Shown one piece after another: positions 2,237 through 9,971 of a DNA stretch of 64,000 nucleotides. Each line of letters begins with the position of its first letter. Position 1 is the first letter of the stretch. A program made the translations under genes and the position numbers. The stretch covers positions 310,001 to 374,000 of the forward strand of contig CAKZJV010000007.1 of the NCBI GenBank assembly GCA_937120475.1, read 5' to 3'. The stretch is from an uncultured Cryomorphaceae bacterium (GTDB lineage: Bacteria > Bacteroidota > Bacteroidia > Flavobacteriales > Schleiferiaceae). Under the pieces are notes generated by a model that had not been told where the DNA came from, searched no databases, and saw nothing but the letters and a program-made list of their open reading frames with translations.

Positions 2237-3169
2237 TCAAGCCTGGTGCGGATAAAAATTTTTTCGAAATAAGACCTGATAAAAGGTGTTCATCACAAAA
2301 ATGTGGGGTAGCGAAATAGAGGATACAACGATCAATAATACATAAGCGTATGAAAGCTCAAGAATTTGAAAGTAGGATAAACCAAACAGTAGTAAAACAC
2401 CTATAATGGTAATGAGGGTAAAGGGCGTGAGCAATTTCACAAAGTCCGCCACGCTCTTGACCGCCCTTTCTGAAGACAGGTAAAAGTACTCTTCACGCAG
2501 CACCTTAAAGGAATGGAGGATAACAAAGTATGAAGTGAAACCTACCAATAAGGGCAATAAGAAAAAGGAGGTTAGAATTAACGCCAGTACCAGTACTTCC
2601 ATAAAGAAAGACTCAGATGACAGCTTTTTCTTCACCGTGAAACTTATTAGAAGCGCCAGTGTACAGCCTGATGCCGTTAAAAAAAGCACCTTCAAAATTA
2701 AAAGCTGGTGGAAAGGCAGTAAGACGGCAAAATCAGGATTGGCCTGCATAATATTTTGAAGTTCCTGGTGATTGAAATAGATCAGCCCCACGAGTACCGT
2801 AATACCCCAGGTCATAAAAAGCACCTGATGAGACCGTGTTTGACCTTTTAAATAATGGGTAAACTGTGACTGACCGAAATGATAAGCGGAAAGCAGGAGG
2901 AAGGAGGTGTAGGCCAGCAGGGGCAGGGTGATCCAAAAAAGTACGTTAAGGCCGATGATTAAAAGGTAAATACCGATAAAACCGGAACGACTGAGTTTTT
3001 TATTTCGCAGGTACAATACATTATCGAGGGCTCCGTGAGGTATCCCCAGGGTAAGAATCAGAAGGGTGCAGGCGGCAAACTGTATTTCCAAGGATAAAGA
3101 GTCGGGGCTACCCACCATACGCAGGAGCATTAAAATGCTGGCGATAAATAAAAAAATGGCCCTGGTCAT
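2237..3169 (-). CDS. blh: Brp/Blh family beta-carotene 15,15'-dioxygenase
   Basis: 310 residues, almost entirely hydrophobic with about eight membrane segments. It carries the family signature GIPHGALDN (His45), SAYHFGQSQFTHY (His97, His105), and further His residues in VILHSFK and SLPHIF, which fit the four-His non-haem iron site. Blh enzymes split beta-carotene into two retinal molecules, the chromophore of microbial rhodopsins. The next gene downstream, 47 bases away on the same strand, is a rhodopsin fragment, so this was a rhodopsin-blh operon. Here the oxygenase looks intact while its partner does not. It may still feed a rhodopsin encoded elsewhere. Confidence 0.9.
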   Translation of the reverse strand: MTRAIFLFIASILMLLRMVGSPDSLSLEIQFAACTLLILTLGIPHGALDNVLYLRNKKLSRSGFIGIYLLIIGLNVLFWITLPLLAYTSFLLLSAYHFGQSQFTHYLKGQTRSHQVLFMTWGITVLVGLIYFNHQELQNIMQANPDFAVLLPFHQLLILKVLFLTASGCTLALLISFTVKKKLSSESFFMEVLVLALILTSFFLLPLLVGFTSYFVILHSFKVLREEYFYLSSERAVKSVADFVKLLTPFTLITIIGVLLLFGLSYFQILELSYAYVLLIVVSSISLPHIFVMNTFYQVLFRKNFYPHQA

Positions 3170-3216: not shown

Positions 3217-3522
3217 TTAGGTGGTGGGTTGATAGGAAGTTTCCTTAGTGGAAGTGACGGCTATGTTATAGACCACGAGACCAAAACCGATTTTATTAAT
3301 GGCATCGGCAATGTTATAAAAGAGATCCACATTTTCCGATCCAAGTCCAAAGGCAGTGTTCAGCCAACCACCGGGCATGCACATGTACCCGATCGGATAA
3401 ATGGCCCAACCTACCAGTACAAACCAGGCCAGGGTGCGCACACCACGCTTAACCACCGGGTGATTGCTGGCCTGCGATAATTTGGTTACTTCACCTATCC
3501 AGGCGGTGTATAAAATGTACAC
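3217..3522 (-). pseudogene. Proteorhodopsin remnant: helices F and G only
   Basis: 101 residues matching only the end of a proton-pumping proteorhodopsin. It begins at the end of helix E (MYILYTAWIGE), has helix F with GWAIYPIGYM, then helix G with NIADAINKIGFGL, where Lys77 would bind retinal. A full rhodopsin is about 240 residues. Helices A-D, with the Schiff-base counterion and proton-donor carboxylates, are absent. Translation of the roughly 100 bases upstream in all three minus frames gives nothing rhodopsin-like before the VOC gene is reached. The likely event is a deletion fusing this end to unrelated DNA. It cannot form a seven-helix pump. Confidence 0.8.
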
Positions 3523-3623
3523 CTATCCGGTTGTTCAATTTGATGGTGAGCCAGACTCTTGTTAAGCGTGATAACCCTAAGGCTGACAGGAGCTCCGGCA
3601 GAGCAAATATGACTTCATTTGCT

Positions 3624-4040
3624 TCAGCTCTGGCGATACTCGCTGATCTCAAAAAGGTGGCCGTCCGGGTCTCGGAAAAAGCAGCGGGTTTCGGCTCCCC
3701 TGGTGTAGGGCGGTGTGATGAACCTGGCTCCCCGGCTCTTTAACAGCTCGTAGGATTCCAAACAGTTGTCCACCCGCATGGTGAAGGAGTGGCTAATGGC
3801 ATTTTTATCTTCAGGGACTATGAAATGCGTTTCCGGTTTATCCGGTGTGGGCCCACCCGGGGTAACCAATAGGAGCCAGTTTCCTAAAAACTCCAGCACC
3901 GTTGAATCTCCACCGTATTCCCGAAAAATTTTGGCACCTAGCACTTCAACATAAAAGGATTTGGATTGCTCCATATCCGATACTACCAGTAGGGTGGTTA
4001 ATGCTGATACACGAAAGCCAGGATTTGAATCAGTATTCAT
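3624..4040 (-). CDS. VOC (glyoxalase/bleomycin-resistance) family protein
   Basis: 138 residues, one VOC domain of paired beta-alpha-beta-beta-beta modules. The first module starts LTTLLVVSDMEQSKSFYVEVLGAK; the second ends with FFRDPDGHLFEISEY, the standard closing motif with a metal-binding Glu. Such proteins bind a divalent metal and act as lyases, dioxygenases or antibiotic-binding proteins; the substrate cannot be told from sequence. It is a single gene with ATG at 4040 and lies on the same strand, 101 bases upstream of the rhodopsin remnant. The breakpoint that removed the rhodopsin N-terminus falls between them. Confidence 0.85.
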   Translation of the reverse strand: MNTDSNPGFRVSALTTLLVVSDMEQSKSFYVEVLGAKIFREYGGDSTVLEFLGNWLLLVTPGGPTPDKPETHFIVPEDKNAISHSFTMRVDNCLESYELLKSRGARFITPPYTRGAETRCFFRDPDGHLFEISEYRQS

Positions 4041-6918: not shown

Positions 6919-8169
6919 TCAGGAGCTGGCTGATTTCTTTTTCGTAAACCAATTGTAAAGTACAGGTACAATCAACAAGGTTAAAAGCATGGATGAAATC
7001 AGGCCTCCAATCAAGGTCCAGCCCAAAGGCGACCATAAATTACTGGCTGAAAAAGTCAGGGGAACCAATCCTAAAATGGTAGTTGCCGTAGTGAGGACAA
7101 TGGGGATAAAACGCCTTTCAGCGGCAATTTTGATGGCTTCCAACTTCGCCTTGCCTTCGGCAATCAACTGATTGGTGTAATCTACTAAAATGATGGAGTT
7201 ATTCACCACAATACCAATAAGGCTTATAAAGCCTACAAAAGCAAAAAACGAAAAACTCCAGCCGGTAAGAAAAAGGGCTATGAAGGAACCTGTTATAGCG
7301 AGGGGTATGGCGGAAAAAATGATTAAGGGTTGTTTAAAGGAACGGAACTGCAACACCAAAACGGCAAATATTCCTAGCATGGTAATAATTAACAGTGTTC
7401 CCAGGTCTCCAAAACTTTCCGTTTGCGTTTCATACTCTCCGCCAACGTAGTACGAGTAGCCATCAGGCCAATCGTATTCCTCTAATTGGGGCAAAATATT
7501 AGCGGTTACTTCGGAGGTTTTATCAGGGTCCAAAACATTGGCCGTAACCCCGATGGAACGGGTTAAATTGAAATGATTGATTTTGGCATACTCGCCTTTA
7601 AACTCTAATTCGGCTACCTGGGAAAGGGGTACTTGCAAGCCTTTATTATTGGTGATGTAAACCTTATCAAAATCGTTCACCGTGGCTTCATTATTAAACG
7701 GAACCCTGAGCCTTAACGGATAAGTCTCGTCTTCCGCTTCCACGTTAATCTTATCAATAGTTAAACCGTCTAAACTGGCCTTTATCGCCTGGTCAATATC
7801 AATAACGGAAAGTCCGTAAATGGCGGCTTTATCACGATTTACCTCCACTTTTATATCAGTTTTCTTCAAGGCCAGCGGATTGTCAATGTCTTCTGTACCG
7901 GGAGTGTTTTGGATCATTCTCTCAACGTCAAAGGCAATATCTCTAAGCACTTCCAGGTCATCACCCAACAATAAAATCTCTACGGGGGCTTCAAATGGGG
8001 CTCCGTTCTTTAATTCTCTGAAGTAGATTTTACCGTCATTAAAAGTTTTAAACTTCTTTTTCAGCTCATGCAGGGTGGTGTAAAACTTTTCAGGATTCCA
8101 TGCTTTAAAATTGACCACTACCTCACCATGGTATTTTTTAAATTCTTCCGGTATCCGGTTGTAATACAC
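6919..8169 (-). CDS. RND efflux pump permease, C-terminal part (frameshifted)
   Basis: This open frame holds the last ~400 residues of the inner-membrane RND pump whose beginning is at 8118-9971. It has the second periplasmic porter region and TM8-TM12, with LVDYTNQLIAEGKAKLEAI and IPIVLTTATTILGLVPL typical of HAE-type pumps. The listed start is only the first Met after the shift. Real coding continues upstream as HTGHGNPQVYYNR, joining the other frame near 8188-8198. Adding one base there makes 6919-9971 exactly 1018 codons, a normal RND length. Either the pump is newly inactivated or the read is wrong at one base. Confidence 0.85.
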   Translation of the reverse strand: MYYNRIPEEFKKYHGEVVVNFKAWNPEKFYTTLHELKKKFKTFNDGKIYFRELKNGAPFEAPVEILLLGDDLEVLRDIAFDVERMIQNTPGTEDIDNPLALKKTDIKVEVNRDKAAIYGLSVIDIDQAIKASLDGLTIDKINVEAEDETYPLRLRVPFNNEATVNDFDKVYITNNKGLQVPLSQVAELEFKGEYAKINHFNLTRSIGVTANVLDPDKTSEVTANILPQLEEYDWPDGYSYYVGGEYETQTESFGDLGTLLIITMLGIFAVLVLQFRSFKQPLIIFSAIPLAITGSFIALFLTGWSFSFFAFVGFISLIGIVVNNSIILVDYTNQLIAEGKAKLEAIKIAAERRFIPIVLTTATTILGLVPLTFSASNLWSPLGWTLIGGLISSMLLTLLIVPVLYNWFTKKKSASS

Positions 8170-9971
8170 CTGGGGATTACCGTGGCCCGTATGGTGATGT
8201 AACTTTCCACAAAATCATTGCTGTCCAAAACGTCCTCTATAAACGATATCGCTTTTTGAGTTCGCTTTAAATCAGCGGTATAAGGCATATCAACGGATAC
8301 CAAAAGAAGTGGTTTGTCGGCCGTAGGAAAAAAACTGACTCCGATTTTTGGAAACAGGGCTCCGGAAAACATAAGAAGCCCGAAGCCAATCAGGAGCACC
8401 ACCCAACCTTTTTTAAGAGCAAAGTTCAAGGCAGGCCGGTACACCTGCTCAATGAGAACCTGCAATTTTCTGCGAACGTAAGTTTGCCTTTCGGCTTTTT
8501 TTGAACTCAGTATTTTGCTGGAAACGATGGGCGTAAAAACCAAAGCCAACAGCAAAGAAGCCAGCAATGCATATATAACGGTAAGAGGGAGGGTCCTTAA
8601 AAACTCACCTGGCCCGGATTGTAATAAGGAAAGAGGCGCAAAAGCCAGTACCGTGGTAATGGTGGAAGCTACAATGGCATAGCCTACTTCCTGGGTTCCC
8701 AGGCTGGCCGCTTTTGGCAACGGGTGACCATCATTTTTAAAGTTTACAATGTTTTCTATAACTACAATGGCATTATCCACCAGTAAACCAAGAGCAATCA
8801 CTAAGGCGGCTATGCTGATTTGTTGCAAGGCGTAATCATTAAAATCCAAAACCGTTACGGCCATAATGATGGAAAGCGGAATAATGGTCATTACCACTAA
8901 AGCCGGCCGCCACCCCAGGAAAATCCAGATAATTATTCCCACTAAAGCGATTCCCTGAAGCAGGTTGCCAATAAAATCATTGATCCGGAATCCAACCGCA
9001 GGGGCCTGCTCAAAAGCGGAAACGAGATGAATATCCGCGGGCAGCTCATCCTGGAAATTTTCGAAGGTGGTGTTTAAGTCTTTGGCAAGGGTAAGAATGT
9101 TGGTTCCCCTTTTTTGAAATACCGTTAAATAAATACAACGCTCTCCGTTAAACCTGCCAAACCATTGTTGATCATCATAATCAAAATTTACTTCGGCCAG
9201 GTCTCGCAAATAAATAACCTGCTGGTTGGTAGAAAGTATGGCGGTATTCCTTATTTCCTCCAAACTTTCCATTCCGCCCGAAGATTGAATGTTAAAAGAC
9301 AGGCTGCCATTGGCAATGTCGCCCCCGGGAATGTTGGCATTATTTCCCTTCAATACACCGATAACGGCTGATAAAGGAATGTTCAGTTGAGCCATTTTTT
9401 CGTAGTTCAGGCTCACTCTGATTTCCTCTACCGGATGGGCTTCAATTTCCGTTTTCTTTACTGCATCAATTTTCTCAATTTCATCCTGAAAATCCTCAGC
9501 CCAATCATAAAGTTCCTTATATTCTTTTTGCTTCGATACCAGCGCAAACTGCTGAATAACCACCCTTTCTTCCGGTTTGAACTGCTCCACTTCCAAACTG
9601 AAAATATCCGGGGGTAATTCCGGCCGCAAACCGGTTACACTGGCCAGGATTTCATCGTACTTCTCATCGTAGTCAATACCGAATTCGGCCTCAATTTTTA
9701 GCACCGCTAAACCATTGGTTATCTCCGTTCTGATTTCGGTGATTTCATCCAATTCATCAATTTCTTCTTCAATCGGGTCAACCACTAAATCCTCCATATC
9801 TTCAGGGCTGGTGCCTGGGTACACCACAATTACGGTGTAGTTCGGTAAATCCAAAGCAGGATCTTCGGATTTTGGCATTGATGTATAGGATTTCAGACCC
9901 AAAAACAAGGCTAAGCCAACCAATACATAAACGAATTGGCTGTTCTTGATGGCGAGTGTGGGTAATCTCAT
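8118..9971 (-). CDS. RND efflux pump permease, N-terminal part (frameshifted)
   Basis: Carries TM1 through TM7 and the first half of the porter domain of an AcrB-like proton-driven drug exporter. It starts at ATG 9971, which overlaps the adaptor stop by ATGA. Family marks include the N-terminal SEDPALDLPNYTVIVVYPG block and TM4 with ALGLLVDNAIVVIENI, holding the proton-relay acidic residue. After VESYIT the frame goes out of phase (last ~20 residues are non-homologous) and ends at 8118; the correct continuation is in the 6919-8169 frame. Third gene of a TolC-adaptor-pump operon; substrate unknown. Confidence 0.88.
   Translation of the reverse strand: MRLPTLAIKNSQFVYVLVGLALFLGLKSYTSMPKSEDPALDLPNYTVIVVYPGTSPEDMEDLVVDPIEEEIDELDEITEIRTEITNGLAVLKIEAEFGIDYDEKYDEILASVTGLRPELPPDIFSLEVEQFKPEERVVIQQFALVSKQKEYKELYDWAEDFQDEIEKIDAVKKTEIEAHPVEEIRVSLNYEKMAQLNIPLSAVIGVLKGNNANIPGGDIANGSLSFNIQSSGGMESLEEIRNTAILSTNQQVIYLRDLAEVNFDYDDQQWFGRFNGERCIYLTVFQKRGTNILTLAKDLNTTFENFQDELPADIHLVSAFEQAPAVGFRINDFIGNLLQGIALVGIIIWIFLGWRPALVVMTIIPLSIIMAVTVLDFNDYALQQISIAALVIALGLLVDNAIVVIENIVNFKNDGHPLPKAASLGTQEVGYAIVASTITTVLAFAPLSLLQSGPGEFLRTLPLTVIYALLASLLLALVFTPIVSSKILSSKKAERQTYVRRKLQVLIEQVYRPALNFALKKGWVVLLIGFGLLMFSGALFPKIGVSFFPTADKPLLLVSVDMPYTADLKRTQKAISFIEDVLDSNDFVESYITIRATVIPRCITTGYRKNLKNTMVR

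Follow-up and report, generated by a model that had tools for sequence, protein, structure and literature searches.

The rhodopsin gene beside blh in the window (the whole 64,000-nt stretch of DNA analysed here, from a marine-type Bacteroidota bacterium) was very probably made a pseudogene by a recent 5′ deletion that orphaned an intact blh, in what looks like an ordinary gene loss at a halfway stage. The bacterium, or a recent ancestor of it, would have carried a two-gene operon in which a DTE-type proton-pumping proteorhodopsin gene was followed by blh. As comparison shows, a single deletion appears to have taken the upstream end of this operon together with ~150 of the ~248 rhodopsin codons, and to have joined the last part of helix E to unrelated DNA that lies behind a VOC gene. 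Lacking helix C and the greater part of the retinal pocket, the remnant would be unable to pump; it could form neither a seven-helix retinal pocket nor a proton path, and light-driven pumping was presumably lost with them. Should blh be transcribed, perhaps via read-through from the VOC gene, retinal synthesis could continue, probably with no opsin left to bind the product. The most likely reason that blh is still intact is that the loss is recent.

The rhodopsin remnant and its breakpoint

The remnant occupies 3217..3522 on the minus strand and comprises 101 codons from a GTG to a stop codon. A profile search with this 101-aa ORF matches positions 139-223 of the 224 in PF01036 (E=2e-12), and its top phmmer matches among solved structures are proteorhodopsins (E=3e-24). 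It is 78-90% identical to the matching part of the closest intact proteorhodopsins. In alignments with intact relatives the ORF begins at residue 151 of ~248, and consensus residues 151-248 are all that remains: the last turns of helix E, the complete helix F, and helix G with its retinal-binding lysine (DAINKIGFG), which aligns with that of intact relatives and solved proteorhodopsins. The ~150 N-terminal codons that are gone represent the first 60% of a proteorhodopsin gene and encode helices A-D and the larger part of helix E. The remnant accordingly lacks the seven transmembrane helices of a proton-pumping proteorhodopsin (PF01036), and the DTE motif, carried as RYIDWTLTVPLMCVEF by the closest intact relatives, is absent along with the deleted helix C. 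The preliminary description, which had the rhodopsin cut down to helices F and G with helices A-D gone, is borne out by the partial PF01036 match and the alignments of relatives, with the end of helix E to be added. Its span of 3217-3622 is correct on the 3′ side and overshoots by ~90 bp at the 5′ end, where homology stops at ~3522-3534.

Alignments of all close full-length relatives begin at their residue 147 of ~248, which corresponds to ~3534 in the window, and continue downward from there. Codon comparison with 13 intact genes delimits a breakpoint zone at 3523..3546 on the minus strand, which may contain up to 4-6 further homologous codons and includes an in-frame TAG and TGA. The codons 5′ of the GTG read TGA ACA ACC GGA TAG at the place where relatives have S-T-I-G-Y; these could be a few extra homologous codons carrying nonsense changes, or a chance resemblance. 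The DNA between this zone and the VOC stop codon (3547..3623, no strand assigned) has no rhodopsin homology, aligns no better than shuffled sequence and is single copy in the genome. Against 74 rhodopsin genes with 300 bp of upstream sequence, the best alignment score in ~3535-3623 is 22 versus a shuffled median of 24, and no hidden frameshifted rhodopsin sequence was found 5′ of 3535.

Directly upstream of the remnant and on the same strand lies a full-length VOC/glyoxalase-family gene (3624..4040, minus strand) with a complete PF00903 domain, in agreement with the earlier statement that the upstream DNA is unrelated and leads to a VOC gene. No VOC gene was found near the rhodopsin operon in any of 51 relatives' loci, which makes the upstream junction a peculiarity of this genome. 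The junction contains no repeat or mobile element, and its sequence matches its own genome once.

An intact blh gene in a genome without a complete opsin

The blh gene (2237..3169, minus strand) encodes a predicted beta-carotene 15,15′-dioxygenase of 310 aa that is intact, as the preliminary description had it. The protein matches PF15461 (E=1e-39) at 136.9 bits against a curated cut-off of 28 and TIGR03753 at 145.4 bits against a cut-off of 95.25. All 23 of the near-invariant residues in a 59-sequence Blh alignment are kept, including His45, His97, His219 and His289. Judged by its sequence, it is a full-length Brp/Blh family member predicted to cleave beta-carotene to retinal. A strict scan for one pattern, the Bacteroidota -33/-7 promoter, returned no match upstream of blh. 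Elsewhere in the family, one genome (G039) carries a 662-aa ORF (L087:241-2226) in which a PF05834 lycopene cyclase is fused to a Blh domain, and many genomes of genus g18 have blh-containing ORFs of ~590-700 aa, similar in length to this fusion.

The assembly (9 contigs totalling 3,645,549 bases, 99.92% complete, with the window inside a 3.04-Mb contig) was searched for full-length rhodopsins, as the preliminary description had proposed, and none was found: the remnant is the sole PF01036 match in the genome. The same search recovered no displaced N-terminal half. Since it picked up partial N-terminal rhodopsin pieces in relatives (positions 4-81 at 57 bits and 3-144 at 93 bits), a displaced half would have been seen here. 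Heliorhodopsin likewise gave no match, a weaker absence given that control genomes also gave none. The genome thus holds one partial PF01036 match and no complete opsin for a functional proteorhodopsin photosystem, and the earlier suggestion that retinal might serve a rhodopsin elsewhere finds no candidate in it.

The carotenoid pathway is present up to lycopene cyclase. A phytoene synthase gene, crtB (C7:80090), lies beside a CrtI-type (phytoene) desaturase gene, whose best NCBIfam model is NF058655 at 768 bits, and an IPP isomerase gene. A two-domain lycopene cyclase of the CrtYcd type is encoded at C7:822772-823434; candidates for a PF05834-type CrtY were rejected as mere Rossmann-fold matches. 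With phytoene synthase, desaturase and CrtYcd cyclase all kept, retinal synthesis is still plausible, and we infer that beta-carotene is the actual product of the pathway. A second lycopene-cyclase-like gene on a 65.6-kb contig (L112:7461-8192, G000:C8, where G000 denotes the window's genome) matches PF18916 and has no NCBIfam match; its neighbour is an NDH2-like oxidoreductase gene rather than carotenoid genes.

Relatives, ancestry and age of the truncation

Spacing was measured in 25 relatives, and in each of them blh comes right after an intact rhodopsin gene at a distance of 41-119 bp, so the comparison with close relatives called for in the preliminary description finds the pair undamaged there; the gap in the window is 47 bp. 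The proteorhodopsin-blh operon of Cryomorpha ignava (L036) has the gene order and spacing of the window, its rhodopsin is 85% identical to the remnant, and its Blh belongs to the same subfamily as the window Blh (51% identical over 304 aa). In the window copy, unlike in that operon, ~150 N-terminal codons are missing along with the region upstream of them, and the unrelated VOC gene adjoins it instead. The D-T-E triad (RYIDWTLTVPLMCVEF) in the nearest intact genes implies that the ancestral rhodopsin was probably a proton pump.

Across the family, rhodopsin occurs in 58 and blh in 55 of 88 genomes, and two other genomes of the genus have neither gene. In a synteny check on gain versus loss, the RDD protein beside the locus had no match in either genus mate, and the peptidase beside it had a genus-mate match of just 37%, which does not exceed its similarity to a second peptidase copy within the window's genome. 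In a weak tree of 99 columns, the remnant belongs to a 16-row set (98/81) together with proteorhodopsins from Cryomorphaceae, Crocinitomicaceae and similar MAGs, and sequences of its own family fall outside this set, which hints that the rhodopsin may have been acquired horizontally. The GC3 of the remnant (0.54), however, matches that of neighbouring genes (0.50-0.55).

The remnant contains no frameshift. Of 69 columns without variation among 11 close relatives, it departs at 2, and intact relatives subjected to the same test depart at 0-3. Its dN to close relatives is slightly raised, at 0.12-0.17 compared with mostly 0.07-0.15 among those relatives. Departures and dN near those of intact genes point to normal constraint through nearly all of the separate history and to a late truncation. 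Dating by dS was dropped because synonymous sites are saturated between the remnant and its relatives. The lack of frameshifts and of excess amino-acid change supports a truncation that would be recent by the timescale of these lineages, as read from 101 codons with saturated synonymous sites. The proposal that light-driven pumping was lost recently is consistent with these values and with the missing part being nowhere else in the genome.

Alternative explanations and known losses of proteorhodopsin

An intact rhodopsin gene might have been collapsed or mis-joined during assembly. We regard this as unlikely: the junction lies inside a long contig of a nearly complete assembly, no other place in that assembly holds the lost N-terminal half, and the junction sequence is single copy, leaving no repeat to produce a mis-join. 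The locus does rest on a single assembly, and the reading frame of an RND permease gene 4.5 kb away is also broken, which could mean local assembly errors; both points count against the deletion reading. The RND efflux permease gene (PF00873; window 6919-9971, minus strand) has a frameshift near 8190 that splits it into ORFs of 617 aa (profile positions 3-598) and 416 aa (616-1020); this can be read either as further gene decay close to the rhodopsin or as an indel from sequencing, and then as a warning about the assembly.

It is less probable still that selection keeps blh because retinal or some other apocarotenoid serves a purpose that needs no rhodopsin, with the rhodopsin remnant incidental. 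The fully intact blh would fit such a role, and so would a Salibacteraceae MAG (MAG_213, L035), in which an intact blh (L035:6001-6903), as in the window, immediately follows a rhodopsin remnant keeping part of helix G. That remnant (L035:5836-5949), known from a 14-kb MAG contig, is much more degraded than the window's, with ~34 recognisable residues of helix G; it suggests an independent parallel and that an intact blh beside a decayed rhodopsin recurs. Recency alone, however, already explains the intact blh here, and both genus mates lack blh. Two other seeming orphan blh genes in the same family (G020 and G086) proved to be contig-end artefacts, cut where the rhodopsin start is still visible, which makes the orphan-blh pattern thin. 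The broader proposition that in some Bacteroidota Blh-made retinal has its own use without any microbial rhodopsin, blh repeatedly outliving rhodopsin as in the window and L035, seems to us similarly improbable. Least credible of all is that translation of the 101-aa remnant continues from the GTG at 3522 and that the product acts as a two-helix membrane peptide. Its lesion-free open frame, possible start codon and retained retinal lysine would allow this, but the absence of lesions is expected after a recent truncation, two in-frame stops lie just upstream, the genome contains no partner half, and helix C with the proton acceptor is gone together with most of the retinal pocket.

A recent deletion is the preferred reading, and it can be set against published losses. 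Both acquisition and loss of the proteorhodopsin and blh genes have been published for Flavobacteriia, as has a link to larger genomes (Kumagai et al. 2018, PMC5932025). Like the losses in Polaribacter and other marine Flavobacteriia (PMC5932025), the present one would concern a larger genome (3.6 Mb) of the Flavobacteriales type; unlike those, in which proteorhodopsin and blh were both inferred lost, the window has a half-deleted rhodopsin gene beside an intact blh. Proteorhodopsin loss in Flavobacteriia is already known, and the present locus contributes a stage in between, a snapshot of phototrophy on its way out with the chromophore pathway intact and the pump gene broken. A survey of gene presence in which blh stands in for rhodopsin phototrophy would place this organism in the wrong class, and the locus offers a natural setting in which to gauge the pace of blh decay after opsin loss. 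A DNA photolyase gene lies a few genes downstream of crtB (L107:10586-11887, G000:C7); this genome thus still has the photolyase tied by Kumagai et al. (2018, PMC5932025) to proteorhodopsin-bearing strains.
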